Origin: Paludibacteraceae bacterium
GTDB lineage: Bacteria > Bacteroidota > Bacteroidia > Bacteroidales > Paludibacteraceae
DNA: 39,419 bases
Reading direction: 5' to 3'
NCBI GenBank assembly: GCA_024693065.1
Contig: JAILLP010000028.1
Coordinates: 1 to 39,419, forward strand
Of the stretch, positions 6,095 through 18,052 are shown in pieces (position 1 is the first letter of the stretch; each line of letters opens with the position of its first letter). Under the pieces are notes generated by a model that was not told the DNA's origin, ran no database searches, and was given only the letters and a program-made list of their open reading frames with translations. A program made the position numbers and the translations under genes.

Positions 6095-6925
6095 TTATTT
6101 AGCTTCTTTTGTGAGTCTCAGTTGCAGGACACCATCCTCGACCACCACATTCGCCACCTTCTCCGTCACAAGACCCATAACCCAGTTTCCACGGCCCCAG
6201 CGGGAAGTATTAAATGAATCGAAGTCGTCCGTCCACGCTTCAGCGAAAGATTTGGATTCTTCGTCATACGAATAAACCTTCACATAATCAATGTATTGGG
6301 TGATAGGGATATTCTTGGAGTTCATCTTCCCTACCCAACCAGTTTCGCTGCTCGCCCACAGATTGAATCGAAGACTTTGGGTCTCCTCAAGGGCAGAAAT
6401 CTGACCCTTCGTATCCCCTGCGGCGGTACGTCTCACCTCTTTCCCGTCGACCAGCCACGCCACATAATCAGGCGTCCATTCCATGACATACACATGATAA
6501 TCCGCATCAACCGGGTAAGAGAGAGAATGTTTTTGTTCCGACGTCACCTTGACAGAAGATGAGCCCGTGATGATGTTGGATTGGAAGCCATTCTGGTCCT
6601 TGCCAATCACCTCGATATCCAACTCATTCCAAGGCTTTCCCCCACCCGCATAAGAATCGTTGTAATAGAGGAACATGGAACTGATACAGCCAGGGGCATA
6701 GGCCATCTTCATCTTTGCCTCGAAACGTCCATACTTGAAGCTCTCTCTCGTGTAGATCTCCGCTCCGAAATAGTTGTATGCAGTATTATCCACGGTTTCT
6801 TCCCCGCCGCCTTGTTGCTCTTTGTTCGTTCCATTATTCACCGGTTCATCGTCATCGTGTGAGCAGGCAAACATACCCAACAACATACCCACGCTCAATA
6901 ATTTCAATAAATTAGAATGCTTCAT
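6095..6925 (-). CDS. Circularly permuted GH16 endo-beta-1,3-1,4-glucanase (lichenase) lipoprotein
   Basis: 276 residues from ATG 6925. An in-frame ATG ten codons upstream gives a poorer signal peptide. Lipoprotein signal peptide with Cys21, followed by SHDDDEP, an acidic patch typical of surface-exported Bacteroidetes lipoproteins. Catalytic motif WNELDIEVIG: E101 nucleophile, D103, E105 acid/base. The mature domain starts with the GAEIYTRESFKYGRFEAKMKMA strands. The strands that open ordinary GH16 lichenases (WTDDFDSFNTSRW...DGVLQLRLTK) are instead at the C-terminus, residues 229-273. The same permutation and similar motifs are known in the Fibrobacter succinogenes lichenase. It should cleave mixed-linkage beta-glucan. 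It sits in a region of plant-wall enzymes. Confidence 0.92.
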   Translation of the reverse strand: MKHSNLLKLLSVGMLLGMFACSHDDDEPVNNGTNKEQQGGGEETVDNTAYNYFGAEIYTRESFKYGRFEAKMKMAYAPGCISSMFLYYNDSYAGGGKPWNELDIEVIGKDQNGFQSNIITGSSSVKVTSEQKHSLSYPVDADYHVYVMEWTPDYVAWLVDGKEVRRTAAGDTKGQISALEETQSLRFNLWASSETGWVGKMNSKNIPITQYIDYVKVYSYDEESKSFAEAWTDDFDSFNTSRWGRGNWVMGLVTEKVANVVVEDGVLQLRLTKEAK

Positions 6926-6985
6926 CTTAATACAATTAGTAAAAAAACAGTTCATTTATCGCTCCCTTAACCAGGGTGTCAGTTG

Positions 6986-6993: not shown

Positions 6994-7079
6994 AAATAAA
7001 TAAACATTCCACACCGAACTCTTCCCTCAAAAAACCATGGATATTTCAAAACAAAAAAGGCGTTCCACATAATTGACCA

Positions 7080-7286
7080 CGTCGAATTAACGTTTCATAA
7101 TTATCATGTGTCACCCTTTCAGGGTTTCCATACACTCGCACCATTTCACACAGGGGTTTACACCCCTGCCTGGAAGTTGTCGCCCCTAAGGGGCTGGGAA
7201 TTTGCGCATCATGTAAGGAAACGCATTCCCTTCAACTCATAATTGACTTCGTCGAACTGACGTTTCTTAATTCATAATTCATAATT
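7080..7286. repeat. Interspersed hairpin repeat, inverted orientation
   Basis: Contains ACCCTTTCAGGGT, AGGGGTTTACACCCCT, GCCCCTAAGGGGC and a GACTTCGTCGAACT motif bounded by CATAATT spacers. This is the reverse complement, in module order, of the copy at 8490-8752. No gene is seen. Confidence 0.75.
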
Positions 7287-7368
7287 AAAAAAAGGTGGAG
7301 ACCACTTGTCTCAAGCAATCTCCACCTGTAACATAAATTGTAAATTTACATCAGTGTAATGTGAATAT
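7287..7368 (-). ncRNA. Candidate small RNA, copy A
   Basis: The minus-strand transcript would begin about 7368, just after a TTTG-N20-TATATTAG promoter (7372-7403). It ends at a rho-independent terminator: 8-bp stem GGTGGAGA / TCTCCACC (7319-7326 with 7294-7301) followed by seven Ts (7287-7293). The internal part carries the palindrome TGTAAATTTACA, conserved in copy C. An inner CTTG/CAAG stem sits in the terminator loop. Length about 80 nt and no open reading frame. Copies B and C share the promoter, body and terminator. The family is not recognised; function unknown. Confidence 0.62.
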
Positions 7369-7371
7369 GTA

Positions 7372-7403
7372 CTAATATAGATAAAATAATCGAGTATTCC
7401 AAA
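7372..7403 (-). promoter_or_regulatory. Promoter of small RNA copy A
   Basis: Minus strand TTTG (7400-7403), 20-base spacer, TATATTAG (7372-7379). The same 20-base spacing is found at copies B and C. An A-rich tract lies directly upstream, as at copy B. Confidence 0.6.
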
Positions 7404-7439
7404 TTTATCAATGATTTTTTTTAGGCGCCAAACGGATTT

Positions 7440-7630
7440 TTTATACATAAATCCCGAGGGCGTTGCCCTAGGCTATATATGTTACGCCCCTTCAGGGCTA
7501 TTCATTCCTCTTGCATCGCCTTGTCCACAGGGGTTTACACCCCAGCCTGGAGGATGTCGCCCCCAAGGGGCTCAGGAATTGCGCAACCTGCAAGAAAACA
7601 CACGTCCTTCATCTCATAATTCATAATTAA
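7440..7630. repeat. Interspersed hairpin repeat, inverted orientation
   Basis: Modules GAGGGCGTTGCCCTAGGC, CCCCTTCAGGG, CAGGGGTTTACACCCC and GCCCCCAAGGGGC, ending in CATAATTCATAATTAA. It matches the copy at 7080-7286 module by module, including the GCGCAA spacer. No credible gene. Confidence 0.75.
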
Positions 7631-7678
7631 CATGTTTTCCCCATTAGGGGATGTCTCGCGATTACTGATCTCAGGTGA

Positions 7679-7890
7679 TTAGGACTGCGATTCAGTCCTA
7701 AGGGGATGCCGGTTGCCCGGCGCGTCGTGTAATAAAGGCTTTTTAGCCTGATGACCTTTCGGCCATTTCATATATAACACTCAAAGTATTCTGAAAAAGG
7801 GGAGACCACTTATCCCAAGCAGTCTCACCCTAGACATACTTTGTAAGTTTACATTCAGTGTTAATGTGTAATACTTGAATATAGTAAAAA
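7679..7890. repeat. Long direct repeat, first copy (hairpin cluster plus small RNA B)
   Basis: About 210 bases nearly identical to 8164-8370. It holds three small hairpins (GGACTGCGATTCAGTCC, GCCGGTTGCCCGGC, AGGCTTTTTAGCCT), then the whole small RNA copy B. Copy A has only the RNA part. Confidence 0.85.
7794..7872 (-). ncRNA. Candidate small RNA, copy B
   Basis: Same layout as copy A on the minus strand: start about 7872, conserved body (ACATTAACACTGAATGTAAAC...), and terminator stem GGGTGAGAC / GTCTCCCC with a single bulge (7822-7830 with 7799-7806) followed by five Ts. Compared with copy A, both arms of the stem have changed while pairing is kept, and the inner stem is CTTG/TAAG (G-U) where copy A has CTTG/CAAG (G-C). 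This supports selection on RNA structure. Confidence 0.62.
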
Positions 7891-7907
7891 CGATTGGTTC
7901 CTGCAAA
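7876..7907 (-). promoter_or_regulatory. Promoter of small RNA copy B
   Basis: Minus strand TTTG (7904-7907), 20-base spacer, TATATTCA (7876-7883). Confidence 0.6.
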
Positions 7908-8163
7908 TTTTCAGCGCGTTTTTTTCACATAAGAGTACAAATTCATCCTCCACATCCAACATGAGGCAGAAAACGCGAATAAAGGGCTAAAAAATCAATA
8001 TAGGAGCATCCCCACCAACCACAGGGGATAGCAGGAAGGCGATCAGGACAAAACACAAGCGTCGATTTTCCCACCTGCAAGGCAGATCCATGCGAAGGGG
8101 AAAAACTTCCCGCTCACCTCGGGAATCGGCCTAAGGCCAATCCATTCATCTATTTCGTCGGAA

Positions 8164-8370
8164 TTAGGACTGCGATTCAGTCCTAAGGGGGTGCCGGTTG
8201 CCCGGCGTGTCGTAAAGGCTTTTCAGCCTGATGACCTTTCGGCCATATCATATAATCATTCAAAGTGTCTTAAAATGGGGAGACCACTTATCCCAAGCAG
8301 TCTCACCCTAGACATACTTTGTAAATTTACATTCAGTGTTAATGTGTAACGATATGAATATAGCAAAAAA
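8164..8370. repeat. Long direct repeat, second copy (hairpin cluster plus small RNA C)
   Basis: Second copy of 7679-7890, about 480 bases downstream and in the same orientation. It has the same GGACTG and GCCGG hairpins and a slightly shortened linker (GTCGTAAAGG where the first copy has GTCGTGTAATAAAGG). The stretch between the two copies (7908-8160) is AT-rich sequence without a gene. Confidence 0.85.
8273..8351 (-). ncRNA. Candidate small RNA, copy C
   Basis: Minus strand; start about 8351, body nearly identical to copy B, including the palindrome TGTAAATTTACA. Terminator stem GGGTGAGAC / GTCTCCCC (8300-8308 with 8277-8284), then ATTTTA, a shorter T tail than in copies A and B. It is the most upstream of three minus-strand copies that lie in series ahead of the lichenase gene. 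Confidence 0.6.
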
Positions 8371-8386
8371 GAACCGTCCGCGCAAA
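8355..8386 (-). promoter_or_regulatory. Promoter of small RNA copy C
   Basis: Minus strand TTTG (8383-8386), 20-base spacer, TATATTCA (8355-8362). The spacer sequence differs from those of copies A and B while the boxes and spacing are kept. Confidence 0.6.
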
Positions 8387-8489
8387 TTTTCAGGCGAAAA
8401 AAAACGCGTCGGAGATCATTATCAACAGTGGGAAGAAAGAAAAATCAATGAAAAGGAGAAACGACGGCAGGGCGGAGAATTATGAATTT

Positions 8490-8752
8490 TGAAACGATAG
8501 TTCGACGGAGTCAATTTTGAATTTTGAATTATGAGTTCGACGCGGTCAATTAAGAGTTGAAGGATATGCGTTTTCTTACATGATGCACAAACCCTAAGCC
8601 CCTTCGGGGCGGTATCCCCCAGGCAGGGGTGTTAACCCCTGTGTATAAGGCGATGCATGCGGATATAGCCCTGAAGGGGCGAAACATAGATAATTTTGAA
8701 ACGTTAGTTCGACGTAGTCAATTATGAGTTCGAGACATGGTCAATTATTAAT
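8490..8752. repeat. Full-length interspersed mosaic repeat
   Basis: One of the most complete copies: GTTCGACG-type motif with AATTATGA spacer, an ATGCGTTTTCTTACATGATGC linker, GCCCCTTCGGGGC, CCCCCAGGCAGGGG, GGGGTGTTAACCCC, GCCCTGAAGGGGC, then a second ACGTTAGTTCGACGTAGTC motif. The region 8387-8952 otherwise holds only AT-rich sequence and the 5' region of the next gene. Confidence 0.75.
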
Positions 8753-8952
8753 CGGGAGGTGTACTTATGGGAGGATCATTTCCTTGATAATTTTCACACA
8801 TTTTAAGTAATACACAACAAAATATTGGAGGAATGCATTGGAAAAGGAAATAATATGCCTAACTTTGAGTTGTGTGACCCAAGAGAGACATACAAAAAAG
8901 ACTCAATACTTAAAAACAGTAATATTTGTTTAACATTTAATCTAAAAAGAAA

Positions 8953-9569: not shown

Positions 9570-12443
9570 TCATTTGCCTAACCAATATATTCTACCATTC
9601 TTAATGAAGAGGGAACCCGGCATCGGATTCTCCACCGGTCTACCGCTCAAATCATAGCGTAAACCATCCCCCTGCTCATCCGACATGCGCGCATCCGCGA
9701 CACCCGTCTGTAAAGGTTCGTTGTCGAGCAACGTGAACGCCTCGGACGAAGGGCCCAAACCTCCCATTCTGTTGGCGGCCCGCACCGTAAAGCGGTCCTG
9801 TTCGGAAGTGCCGGAAGGGATCTCAAACGAGTTGGTCGCCACATTCGTCACATAGACGTCGTTCTTGAATACCACATAGCAAAGCGCAGAATCATTGTCC
9901 ACCCAGCGCAGGACGCCCGCCTTCATGGCCACCTGCGGAGCGGAAACCAACCTCGCCTCCTCATCGGGATGCCAGTTGTCGCTACCCGACAAGACATTCC
10001 GCAGGGTATACTTCGAAGCATCCGCATCAGAGAGGACAGGGTTGAGGTAGGCTGTATTACCGTTCTTCTCGTAATAGGAACGTCTGTTGGAGAGGTTCAC
10101 AGCATTGCCATACGCGTCACGGCTGTTATACTCCGCGAAGAGGACCGGCATCACATCATTGATAGGGTTGCCCCAAGCGGCATCCGTCGGGAGGCGCTTC
10201 ATCGTCGTATTCAGATAGACGGCACGGGGTGATTTGTTCCACGCCCTACCCAGCGTATAGTTTTTGTTCGAGATATCATACCCGTCGATGGTGCAATCGT
10301 GGAAGACGTAGCCCCACTGACCCGTACCGGCAGGCGCCGCGATGCAATCACCCGAGCGGTTCTCCAAGAAAAGCAGGCAACGCTCGAAGAAGACGTCACT
10401 ACCTCCGCAGATGAAATCGACCGTGCCGTGGATTTCACCCTCCTCCCAATAGATACGGCCGGAGGTGTTGTTCGAGTAGTAGGTATCCTGTGTGCTCAGC
10501 AGGCGCACCCGCTTGTATATATTGCGGTCGCCCTTGTCCTGCAGCGCCACAAAACGGTTCGCCTTGGCATTCGGATCGTTATAGGCGCGGTTCTGTAGCG
10601 TCAAATCCTGGAAGTACATGTTCTTGGCGGAGGTGTTTAGGCAGAGCGTAGCCGTCACGCTGATGCCCTCCGACTGCGCCGCATTGTAGAGCGTCACGCC
10701 CTGCGTGCTCTGTCCGATGAAAGAGACGTTGGCCTTACCGAAAGAGGTCTTCTGGTTCTCATCACCCGTCAGTCTGCCGAGGTCATACTCCCCGTTCGGG
10801 AAGAAGATGATGAAGCGGGAGGAGGAAGAAGCCTCCGCGGCAGCCTTAGCGGCGGCGAAGTCACCGTCGACACCCACCACGAAATCATACTTCACATGCT
10901 GGGCGGTAGGGGAAGGATTGTATAGATCGTCACCCGTGCTCGTCGTGTCGCCCGACGGACCCTGTTGTTGAGGCAGGTCGCAAGAGATGGTAGAGGCATC
11001 GTTCAAGGCATCCGCCACACCGTCCGCCATCATCTCGCAGACCAGCGAGTTCATGTATATCTCTAGATTCGTGTAGCCACTGCCATCCGAAGCGAGGCTC
11101 GCACCATCCGAAACGTCATCAGGGTTCAAACCATAGGTGGATTCCCACTCGTCTGGCATACCGTCACCGTCGGAGTCCGTCGGGGCAGGTGCGGAGGCAA
11201 GTTCAGGCCAGCCACCCACATCCGAGGTCTTATCGATGATACCCAAGCCACCCAAGACAGAGCCCTTGGCGGTATAGGAACGTCTCCTCGTATCGTCCAC
11301 CACACGGGCATCCACCGCATCACGGTGCAGAGAAGCGCCCGCATACTTCAGGACCTTCTCGTAGGCGACATCCGCCCTTTGGGTAGAGACAGGAGTGACC
11401 GCATACTCCACATTGGAGCGCACGGAGTTCTGGTTCATGGAACCATTGTTGGAGTTATTGATGTCGAAACCATTCCAGTCCCAGCCGTTGCCCTTGTCCT
11501 CCATGTAATTGCCGCTCACGAAGAAGTGTCCATAGACACCCTGTGACTGGCTGTTCTTGCCATCGTCCGCCCACACTTCGAAGATACGGTACTTGATAGA
11601 AGACTTCGTGGCGGGACCAGACTTGTAGTAATTATTCACGAAGTTATAGCTACCCCCTTCGCCCGCATAACCGCTGTTCGTCGCTCCCCAGTTGTAGAAG
11701 ACATTATTGCGGAGGTCCACCAGCTCATTGCCCGCCTCGTTCGAGTAGCGGCTACCGCAGAGGCGGGGCGTACGGCTGTCATGGTGGGCCACTAGGTTAT
11801 GATGGAACGAAGCGCCCTTTCCGCCCCATATTCCGCCATAGCCATGGTATCCCTTCGGGTGGATGGAACCACGCAGGCTCTCGGCCACCAGGCACCACTG
11901 CATCGTGAAGTTCGTATTGTCGTAGAAGGAGGCGCACTCATCCGTGCACCAGCTCATGGAACAATGATCAAGGATGATATTCTTCTGCCTGCGGCCCCAT
12001 ATCGCATCCCTATCCAGGGTGACAGAGCCGTCGCTGTTCACGTCAGGCTTATCCGTGCCCAAGCGGAAACGAATGAAGCGTATGATCACGTTATCCGCCC
12101 CGATGTAGGTCTCGTAGTTTTTCAGGCAGATACCATCACCCGGGGCAGTCTGTCCCGCAATGGTCAAGTCACCATTGGAGATCTTCAGGCGAGAAGTCAG
12201 TTCGATCGTGCCCGAAACATCGAAGACGATTGTCCTAGCGCCCGACTGGTTGACCGCATAGCGCAACGTGCCCTTCGAGCCGTCATCCGCCAAAGAAGTC
12301 ACATGATAAACCTTACCCCCACGTCCGCCCGTGACGTACATGCCGAAGCCCTCGGCGCCAGGGAAGGCAGGCGTGGCGGAGATGAGATCCGCACACCACA
12401 AGGTAAAAAGGAATGGTAATACTACCCTAAAAACATTTTTCAT
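9570..12443 (-). CDS. Secreted pectate lyase (PL1) - pectin methylesterase (CE8) fusion
   Basis: 957 residues. Signal peptide to about Ala23. PL1 parallel beta-helix at about 25-420: opening FPGAEGFGMYVTGGRGG, core DHCSMSWCTDE, and HHDSRTPRL with the probable catalytic Arg. A Ca-binding type linker follows (DSDGDGMPDEWE, about 432-445). The CE8 pectinesterase domain at about 520-830 has the full catalytic set: Q in ALQDKGD, QD in STQDTYY, D in GTVDFICGG and R in LGRAW. After that come an Ig/Fn3-like strand region (about 850-915) and a short C-terminal motif YDLSGRPV...FIKNGRIYWLGK. It should demethylate pectin and cleave the product. The C-terminal motif also ends the gene at 23330 and may direct secretion. 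It lies 122 bases downstream of the GH30 gene and is probably co-expressed with it. Confidence 0.93.
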   Translation of the reverse strand: MKNVFRVVLPFLFTLWCADLISATPAFPGAEGFGMYVTGGRGGKVYHVTSLADDGSKGTLRYAVNQSGARTIVFDVSGTIELTSRLKISNGDLTIAGQTAPGDGICLKNYETYIGADNVIIRFIRFRLGTDKPDVNSDGSVTLDRDAIWGRRQKNIILDHCSMSWCTDECASFYDNTNFTMQWCLVAESLRGSIHPKGYHGYGGIWGGKGASFHHNLVAHHDSRTPRLCGSRYSNEAGNELVDLRNNVFYNWGATNSGYAGEGGSYNFVNNYYKSGPATKSSIKYRIFEVWADDGKNSQSQGVYGHFFVSGNYMEDKGNGWDWNGFDINNSNNGSMNQNSVRSNVEYAVTPVSTQRADVAYEKVLKYAGASLHRDAVDARVVDDTRRRSYTAKGSVLGGLGIIDKTSDVGGWPELASAPAPTDSDGDGMPDEWESTYGLNPDDVSDGASLASDGSGYTNLEIYMNSLVCEMMADGVADALNDASTISCDLPQQQGPSGDTTSTGDDLYNPSPTAQHVKYDFVVGVDGDFAAAKAAAEASSSSRFIIFFPNGEYDLGRLTGDENQKTSFGKANVSFIGQSTQGVTLYNAAQSEGISVTATLCLNTSAKNMYFQDLTLQNRAYNDPNAKANRFVALQDKGDRNIYKRVRLLSTQDTYYSNNTSGRIYWEEGEIHGTVDFICGGSDVFFERCLLFLENRSGDCIAAPAGTGQWGYVFHDCTIDGYDISNKNYTLGRAWNKSPRAVYLNTTMKRLPTDAAWGNPINDVMPVLFAEYNSRDAYGNAVNLSNRRSYYEKNGNTAYLNPVLSDADASKYTLRNVLSGSDNWHPDEEARLVSAPQVAMKAGVLRWVDNDSALCYVVFKNDVYVTNVATNSFEIPSGTSEQDRFTVRAANRMGGLGPSSEAFTLLDNEPLQTGVADARMSDEQGDGLRYDLSGRPVENPMPGSLFIKNGRIYWLGK

Positions 12444-17257: not shown

Positions 17258-17286
17258 GTCAGTTATACATATGTCGTTTCAGGCGG

Positions 17287-17955
17287 TTACTTCTTGTCGC
17301 AACCTGCCACGAAGCCCCATGAGAATGCGGCCAAAGCGGCACCGATGAATGGACCTACGATGAAGATCCAGAGCTGGGACAATGCATCGCCGCCCTGGAA
17401 CAAGGCTGGAGCGATGGAACGAGCCGGGTTAACGGATGTGCCCGTGTAACGAATACATGCCAAGTGCACCAATACGAGGCAAAGACCGATCGCCAAGCCT
17501 GCGAAGTTTCCTGCTCCCTTGCTGGAGTCGGTGGTGCCCAACACGGTGAATACGAACACGAACGTGAAGAAGACCTCAGCGAGGAGTCCGCCCGTCGTGT
17601 TCACGCCAGACTGCAGACTGTTCGCACCTGTACCCTCCAAACCAGCGTTCGAAGTGAGCAGATAAAGGATCGTGGAGCCAAGGAACGCTCCGATCACCTG
17701 GAACAACATGTACATGCCCGCATCCTTAGGGGAAATCCTCTTGGTGAGCAAGCAGCCCAACGTGATGGCAGGATTGATATGACATCCACTGATGCCACCA
17801 ATCGTATAGGCCATCGCGACGACAGCCAAACCGAAGGCTACCGCAGTACCTACAACACTCGCGGTGTCCACACCGCAACTCAAACTTACAGCAGTTCCGC
17901 AACCCATAAGAACCAAAACCATGGTTCCTACCATTTCAGCTAAATACTTTTTCAT
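17287..17955 (-). CDS. aqpZ: Aquaporin Z-type water channel
   Basis: 222 residues, six membrane helices and two half-helices with both NPA boxes: HINPAIT (61-63) and SVNPARS (176-178). The selectivity-filter residues match water-specific AqpZ, not glycerol facilitators: Phe41, His164, Thr173 and Arg179. It conducts water across the inner membrane, serving osmotic adjustment. It is a single gene with its own terminator, on the same strand as ilvC but probably not in an operon with it. Confidence 0.96.
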   Translation of the reverse strand: MKKYLAEMVGTMVLVLMGCGTAVSLSCGVDTASVVGTAVAFGLAVVAMAYTIGGISGCHINPAITLGCLLTKRISPKDAGMYMLFQVIGAFLGSTILYLLTSNAGLEGTGANSLQSGVNTTGGLLAEVFFTFVFVFTVLGTTDSSKGAGNFAGLAIGLCLVLVHLACIRYTGTSVNPARSIAPALFQGGDALSQLWIFIVGPFIGAALAAFSWGFVAGCDKK

Positions 17956-18052
17956 TACACACTAATATTTAAAAAGTTAATAACATAAACATACACTAAT
18001 TCAAAGGTTTATGCGAAAATACAAAAAAAGAAGATTCGGTGGATTTCAAATA

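Follow-up and report, generated by a model that had tools for sequence, protein, structure and literature searches.

What are three similar short sequences, each apparently with a promoter and a terminator of its own, doing in a stretch of DNA otherwise empty of genes? The question arises in the window analysed here (the whole stretch of 39,419 nucleotides, from a Paludibacteraceae bacterium), where an earlier note had described three minus-strand copies of a unit made of TTTG-N20-TATATT, a body of about 40 nt and a terminator hairpin. All three are present, with a body that we put at ~43 nt; the two promoter boxes are exactly 20 nt apart in each, and the region 7287-8386 does lie in a gene desert, as no frame of at least 80 aa is found wholly inside 7077-8802. 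As we read the sequence, the promoter of copy A (7374..7403, minus strand) has TTTG at 7403-7400 and, after N20, TATATT at 7379-7374; the predicted RNA occupies 7287..7370 (minus), with the body at ~7370-7328, the terminator stem at 7327-7293 and a T tract running to 7287. The promoter of copy B (7878..7907, minus; TTTG 7907-7904, N20, TATATT 7883-7878) would drive an RNA at 7794..7875 (minus; body ~7875-7832, terminator stem ~7831-7798, T tract to 7794), and that of copy C (8357..8386, minus; TTTG 8386-8383, N20, TATATT 8362-8357) an RNA at 8271..8353 (minus; body ~8353-8309, terminator stem ~8308-8277, short T tract). We take TTTG and TAnnTT to be the boxes of the Bacteroidota housekeeping-type promoter. 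Simple scans gave 13 promoter-like matches vs 5.9 in shuffles and 5 terminator-like matches vs 2.2, both mildly above chance; the decisive evidence for the putative RNA copies is their conservation across species, not these scans.

Within its own genome the unit is confined to this locus. When copy C was used as a query against the whole genome, copies B and A were 92% and 76% identical to it, and the other three matches were 14-21 bases long with E >0.2. The sequence TGTAAAYTTACA likewise occurs in the whole genome only at the three copies. The likeness between B and C spans ~213 nt and extends well beyond the terminator; A is alike over the first ~97. The earlier note was right about the three copies but missed this extension of B and C. 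Downstream of copy A lies a lichenase-type glycoside hydrolase family 16 gene (6095..6955, minus; PF00722, E 3.5e-28). A small lipoprotein-like gene, recognised by eye and without a Pfam match, flanks the RNA stretch on the opposite side, and beyond it, upstream of the RNAs, is a pectate lyase/pectinesterase gene (9570..12443, minus; PF01095, E 1.7e-22), hereafter pectinase.

A covariance model was trained on 14 B/C-type copies, with the A copies left out. The search of related genomes with such a model, proposed in the earlier note as a check, found the unit in 8 of the 16 genomes of the genus at E <1e-6. There were 22 matches at E <= 1e-6 in 11 sources; one of them is cut at a contig end and appears to be the same B copy on a neighbouring contig of genome G010. 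Without it, 21 full copies remain, namely three each in G000, G001, G005, G009, G010 and G015, two in G007 and one in G008. The A copies were recovered at 57-65 bits despite their absence from training (65.1 bits for copy A of the window); copies B and C of the window, both training sequences, scored 109.2 and 106.0 bits. Weak matches in G002, G004 and G006 and at a second G008 site (L067, L068, L069, L077), including those in three further genomes of the genus at E 0.059-0.53, were judged after reading to be chance. An exact body pattern run over the GTDB species genomes hit 11 stretches in seven genomes, all labelled as Paludibacteraceae or Bacteroidales bacterium. Where the records name a habitat, it is yak, sheep or water-buffalo rumen, or horse faeces.

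At the level of the family, 20 of 358 genomes matched at E <= 0.05, namely the eight carriers and 12 others. Eight of the 12 non-carrier loci (L087-L093, L097; six of them aligned) have no conserved body and share mainly a hairpin with the RNA. Two of these, L088 1501-1575 (+) and L089 1501-1575 (-), from genus g22 (per-genome E of 4.5e-4 and 0.003), combine a promoter-like box with a short body and a terminator whose apex, of the CTCGGGATGAG type, is similar, and possibly represent either a distant relative of the window RNA or a separate small RNA. Loci L091, L093 and L097, also of genus g22, carry a near-identical terminator, GAGACGGCTCGGGATGAGTCGTCTC, after a gene in these three genomes, and L094-L096 and L098 matched the same model positions. 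In a sample of the order, two of 393 genomes matched at E <= 0.001: the window's own genome and G478, which has mainly the terminator in common with the window RNA. Within the genomes searched, the predicted RNA is thus found in one genus, with no convincing copy elsewhere. As for the earlier note's suggestion of comparing the copies with Rfam, neither the window nor four carrier loci produced a match to Rfam 15 at the gathering score. A single sub-threshold match overlaps a copy (IS128, 14.7 bits vs 80, E 5.1). The putative sRNA family therefore matches no Rfam family at threshold, and no account of it was found in the literature. Most of what is known about regulatory RNA in Bacteroidota comes from Bacteroides; what we describe is a delimited and strongly conserved predicted RNA family in gut relatives that are known here from metagenome-assembled genomes.

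Is it the RNA that selection has preserved? The TTTG-N20-TAnnTT arrangement is found in 20 of the 21 full copies, the exception being a copy behind a prophage in G009. Among 15 B/C-type copies, the mean identity is 97% in the body (nt 5-43) and 60% in the promoter spacer. A comparison between the two carrier clades is more telling. Relative to copy B of the window, 42 of 43 body bases are kept in G008 and 39 and 41 in the two G007 copies, whereas the spacer keeps 8 of 20 bases in G008 and 10 and 8 in G007. Over the same distances, aquaporin third codon positions, compared ungapped from the start, are identical at 0.31 (G008) and 0.26 (G007), about what saturation would give. Such near-invariance of the body, set against the spacer and the third codon positions, argues for strong purifying selection on the body, in agreement with the earlier note's view that the copies reflect selection on an RNA and not a drifting repeat. 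The same 97% vs 60% contrast tells against the combined possibility of short protein genes or drifting repeats, to which we give almost no credence. Short frames do exist, for instance one of 30 codons in the 3′ segment of copy B, but they are broken in other copies by indels and stops (the corresponding G015 B segment reads ATG-AAA-TGA), the body of one G007 copy has no ATG, and it is the stems that are kept, not the frames. Small proteins were rejected on the ground that frames are not conserved between copies. A mobile repeat was rejected as well: there is no plasmid or phage match, a long pattern gave 0 hits in viral contigs, and in the own genome only the three copies rise above chance. 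One viral match (L122), which sits in a repeated AAATACACATTAACA stretch, was judged to be chance.

The gene order offers another possibility, namely that each unit is a cis-acting leader or attenuator of the gene downstream. In the window, a promoter, a short body and a terminator do precede a co-oriented gene. The earlier note had placed all copies upstream of the lichenase, and lichenase does lie beside the RNAs in six of the eight carriers, the window included, but not in the stretches read from G007 and G008. There, the RNAs lie downstream of the pectinase on its strand, and the next gene is convergent. Moreover, each copy has a promoter and a terminator of its own, and a promoter-like TATCTTTG belongs to the lichenase itself. 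We consider a leader function very unlikely, and a lichenase leader was dropped on two grounds: the separate promoter and terminator of every copy, and the lack of a lichenase next to the copies in the stretches read from G007 and G008. The pectinase is a steadier neighbour, near the RNAs in seven of the eight carriers; the exception is G001, where it shares a contig with the RNAs but lies ~7 kb from copy C. There (C18 ~43,400-51,000; L038), the RNAs, lichenase and Sel1-repeat genes appear to be inverted against the pectinase relative to the window. Pectinase orthologs occur in 15 of the 16 genomes of the genus at E <= 1e-50. Around the pectinase in seven non-carrier stretches, reaching only ~1.5 kb beyond the matched piece, the covariance model found nothing at E <= 5. 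On an aquaporin tree the carrier label needs two changes, with which gain and loss are both compatible.

The terminator supplies a second kind of evidence. Its apical loop is GNGA(Y) in all 21 copies, with all four bases occurring at N and the extra 3′ pyrimidine present in all but the G007 and G008 copies; we presume it to be a GNRA-type loop. Of the four occurrences of the apex motif CTYGNGAYRAG in 439 kb of the genome's sequence, three are at these copies. The earlier note held that the terminator stems differ between copies with pairing retained, and that the inner stem shifts from G-C to G-U. The shift is borne out by column pair 64-68 (GU in nine rows, GC in nine, the rest gaps). Retained pairing is nearly but not strictly right, since copy A is fully paired in the fold but a U.C mismatch or a bulged U interrupts the stem once in each of the window's B and C copies. 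Covariation was tested on 22 rows (19 distinct) against 500 shuffles, in an alignment fitted to the covariance model. The stem pairs in 92.5% of cells, equalled by 2/500 shuffles; double-changed cells number nine vs 1.4 in shuffles, with 0/500 as high, and the covariation score was reached by 3/500. The number of pairs with double changes (2 vs 0.9, reached by 79/500) is not clearly raised, and that of further pair types (11 vs 11.7, reached by 463/500) is not raised. Thus, the covarying stem that the earlier note expected in homologues is seen when the A copies are included, on all rows, but the 14-sequence B/C-type alignment alone has no covariation beyond shuffles. On the comparative evidence as a whole, the predicted RNA family is real. 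What characterises small RNA genes with intrinsic terminators in general, namely their own promoter and terminator, no conserved frame and conservation across species, is found here.

The reading we favour, with a probability of roughly 0.6, is that the three copies belong to a paralogous family of ~80-nt antisense sRNAs, similar in build to the FopS sRNAs of Bacteroides but unrelated to them in sequence. Each copy would be transcribed from its own housekeeping-type promoter and end at its own intrinsic terminator, whose hairpin with the GNRA-like apical loop would both end and stabilise the RNA. The weakly structured 5′ body of ~40 nt would be the working part, most likely pairing with translation-initiation regions and so blocking a few mRNAs, and the presence of three copies could provide dosage or differently controlled outputs. 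The body is only mostly unpaired (mean unpaired probability 0.53-0.60 in the three window copies). A small, weak hairpin is possible within it: B and C could form ACAUU-7 nt-AAUGU and A the shorter ACAU-7 nt-AUGU, and G007 and G008 would have a U.U mismatch. The best folds of a short 5′ piece, not all of which have the ACAUU-type pairing, reach -1.1 (B), -2.2 (G008) and -2.7 (A) kcal/mol, and RNAalifold favours a different body hairpin of four pairs that never varies. Identical runs within the body are just 6-7 bases long between A and B, so that a seed common to all three copies would be short; between A and C there is one run of 14.

Conservation of the ~40-nt body exceeds what a short seed needs, which counts against the antisense reading and would suit an RNA that acts by binding protein: the body and/or the GNRA-like hairpins would titrate a protein, as CsrB or 6S RNA does. 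The constant GNGA(Y) apex is in keeping with this. So is a segment beyond the terminator of B and C (minus strand; 7679..7793 in B, with hairpins H2 at 7766-7751, H3 at 7749-7736, H4 at 7721-7708 and H5 at 7701-7679; 8164..8270 in C, with H2 at 8246-8231, H3 at 8229-8216, H4 at 8206-8193 and H5 at 8186-8164), whose near-constant stems and varying loops and linkers would make the array a set of extra binding sites. All four hairpins are present in 12 of 12 B/C copies of the window's clade. Two stem pairs of H2 vary with pairing kept (G-U/G-C/A-U; C-G/U-G/U-A), the stems of H3 and H4 are constant bar one weak outer pair, with loops and linkers that vary in length and sequence, and H5 (TTAGGACTG-AATCG-CAGTCCTAA) is invariant in the B/C copies. 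Since a single pair in H2-H5 has changed on both sides, the support for these hairpins comes from fixed stems and free linkers, not from covariation. On the other hand, the array is absent from the A, G007 and G008 copies, and no protein partner was found. Protein binding is to our minds an unlikely alternative, albeit one to be taken seriously. Under the antisense reading, the segment could be added, as some 110 nt with four hairpins, by read-through of the terminator. The T tracts are 4-5 long in B/C copies and 6-7 in five of the six A copies, which makes read-through into the segment plausible.

The likeness to FopS is one of architecture. The FopS sRNAs of Bacteroides thetaiotaomicron are ~65-70 nt long, have canonical promoters, a single-stranded 5′ seed stretch and a terminator hairpin, occur as many paralogs, repress mRNAs, those of the susC type included, at start codons and have the RRM-1 protein RbpB as a partner (PMC11697453). 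Compared with them, the window RNA is also a paralogous family with canonical promoters and a mostly unpaired, conserved 5′ stretch followed by a terminator hairpin, at ~80 nt instead of ~65-70; it differs in its three tandem copies, its occurrence in one genus and the extra hairpin segment of B and C. The 35-nt R1′ seed consensus published for FopS aligns locally with the body no better than with shuffles (B 238/1000, A 801/1000). The window RNA may hence work like FopS by its architecture, without being a member of that family. The own genome encodes a single RRM_1 protein, of the class to which the FopS partner belongs (PMC11697453). In the whole genome G000, one SusC among 14 matches lies over the NCBIfam cut-off, which seems few for a fibre-degrading Bacteroidales and makes SusC repression unlikely as a broad rule here. 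Tandem paralogous sRNAs are familiar from other phyla, as OmrA/B, Qrr and PrrF. The present copies resemble those near-identical genes with separate promoters and terminators in layout, not in sequence, and differ in phylum and promoter type.

Which mRNAs might such an antisense RNA meet? Duplex energies, computed without regard to target structure, were obtained for 27 start positions in the window (26 genes, lichenase counted twice) and then for 291 starts from ~440 kb. A single candidate target emerged, the aquaporin mRNA. Among the 27 window starts, aquaporin is the best pairing for B and C, whereas copy A pairs better with the ilvC start (-19.5 vs -18.1). Among the 291 it comes first for B, with an energy of -20.2 and 13 contiguous pairs, G-U allowed, spanning the start codon; the candidate site, TTAGTGTGTAATG (17953..17965, minus), is complementary to the 5′ part of RNA B. 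Shuffles reached the aquaporin pairing energy in 28/2000 cases for B, 7/2000 for C and 582/2000 for A (uncorrected). Among the 27, the pectinase start ranks second for C (-19.1) and takes fourth place for B (-15.6); nothing marked out the starts of lichenase or the lipoprotein. All six genomes of the window's clade have the pattern TTARTGTGTAATG where the aquaporin gene starts, with an A/G difference that keeps an A-U or G-U pair; the pattern is absent there in G007, G008 and seven non-carriers that have the gene. Across the genus it occurs nine times in seven of the 16 genomes vs twice for the reversed control, and the three non-aquaporin occurrences precede no frame of more than 19 codons. 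Nevertheless, the gene was picked after the look, its leader is conserved beyond the site, and G007 and G008 have no site although their RNA body is nearly the same. We hold aquaporin as a true target tentatively, and with more doubt than belief. A covariance model, defined copies and a candidate target are in place for the RNA family. In the window the aquaporin gene lies at 17286-17955; a leader of ~30 nt is conserved in six species, and the sequence farther upstream differs in G015.

Copy A has a further property. In G009 it is in two pieces, with the promoter and first bases at C7 ~288,350-288,410 and the body and terminator ~58 kb away, adjoining the lichenase. The intervening C7 ~288,389-346,244 (L041, L046, L099-L101) is a ~58-kb prophage inserted in sRNA gene A. 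A 20-bp core, ATATTCACATTACACTGATG, is present at both prophage ends and corresponds to 7349..7368 (minus) of copy A in the window, which represents the empty site. A tyrosine integrase that also has SAM-like and Arm domains (PF00589, E 1e-23) adjoins the second end, and the prophage encodes a family A DNA polymerase (PF00476, E 1.5e-31). Searched with 18 bases of the core, IMG/VR yielded two contigs, and these same two are the only ones confirmed to encode a relative of the G009 integrase (85% identity), in a search that covered close relatives only and confirmed two of seven candidate stretches. In contig 3300033463_000651 (L121) the core is flanked on both sides by phage arms that match the G009 ends by eye, i.e. 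an apparent attP; in the second the core is at the contig end. The duplicated core, the integrase at one end, the matching attP and the empty attB identify copy A, on sequence grounds, as the place where a phage attaches in a single lysogen, G009.

This use invites the question whether the units are conserved as double-stranded DNA, that is, as an operator, or a site of recombination, that closely follows a promoter. Partial palindromes in the body (TGTAAATTTACA; ACATT-N7-AATGT) would also suit such an element. However, the palindrome is not perfect in copy B or in G007 and G008, a terminator hairpin is part of what is conserved, and a single phage use leaves the conservation of B and C unexplained. 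The confinement of TGTAAAYTTACA to the three copies speaks against a DNA element and rules out a genome-wide operator. We regard a DNA element as distinctly improbable and return to the antisense sRNA reading. Copy A documents, with the empty and the phage site both known, how a phage attaches to a predicted small-RNA gene and in doing so displaces the RNA promoter.

Phage integration into genes is a habit known from tRNA and tmRNA genes. As there, a tyrosine integrase here enters a conserved small RNA gene and the core is duplicated; the difference is that the core here is the 5′ part of the RNA, so that insertion separates the promoter from the RNA. No TTTG-N18..22-TAnnTT is found in front of the displaced G009 copy A. 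It is conceivable, though we think it improbable, that lysogeny switches sRNA A, silencing it or placing it under another promoter, while B and C form a class with two lengths, either the short RNA or a read-through RNA of ~210 nt with four small hairpins. If the RNAs control aquaporin and/or the plant-fibre enzymes, the phage would reset host physiology through its choice of insertion site. Around the copies, at 7100-7240, 7480-7600 and 8590-8690, there are GC-rich palindromic stretches of the CAGGGGTGTAAACCCCTG and GCCCCTTAGGGGC type and AT-rich AATTATGAATTA/GTTCGACG repeats, REP-like by eye; one stretch, 7454-7499 on the plus strand, gives a sub-threshold Rfam match to Acido-Lenti-1 (25.3 bits vs 37, E 0.0035).
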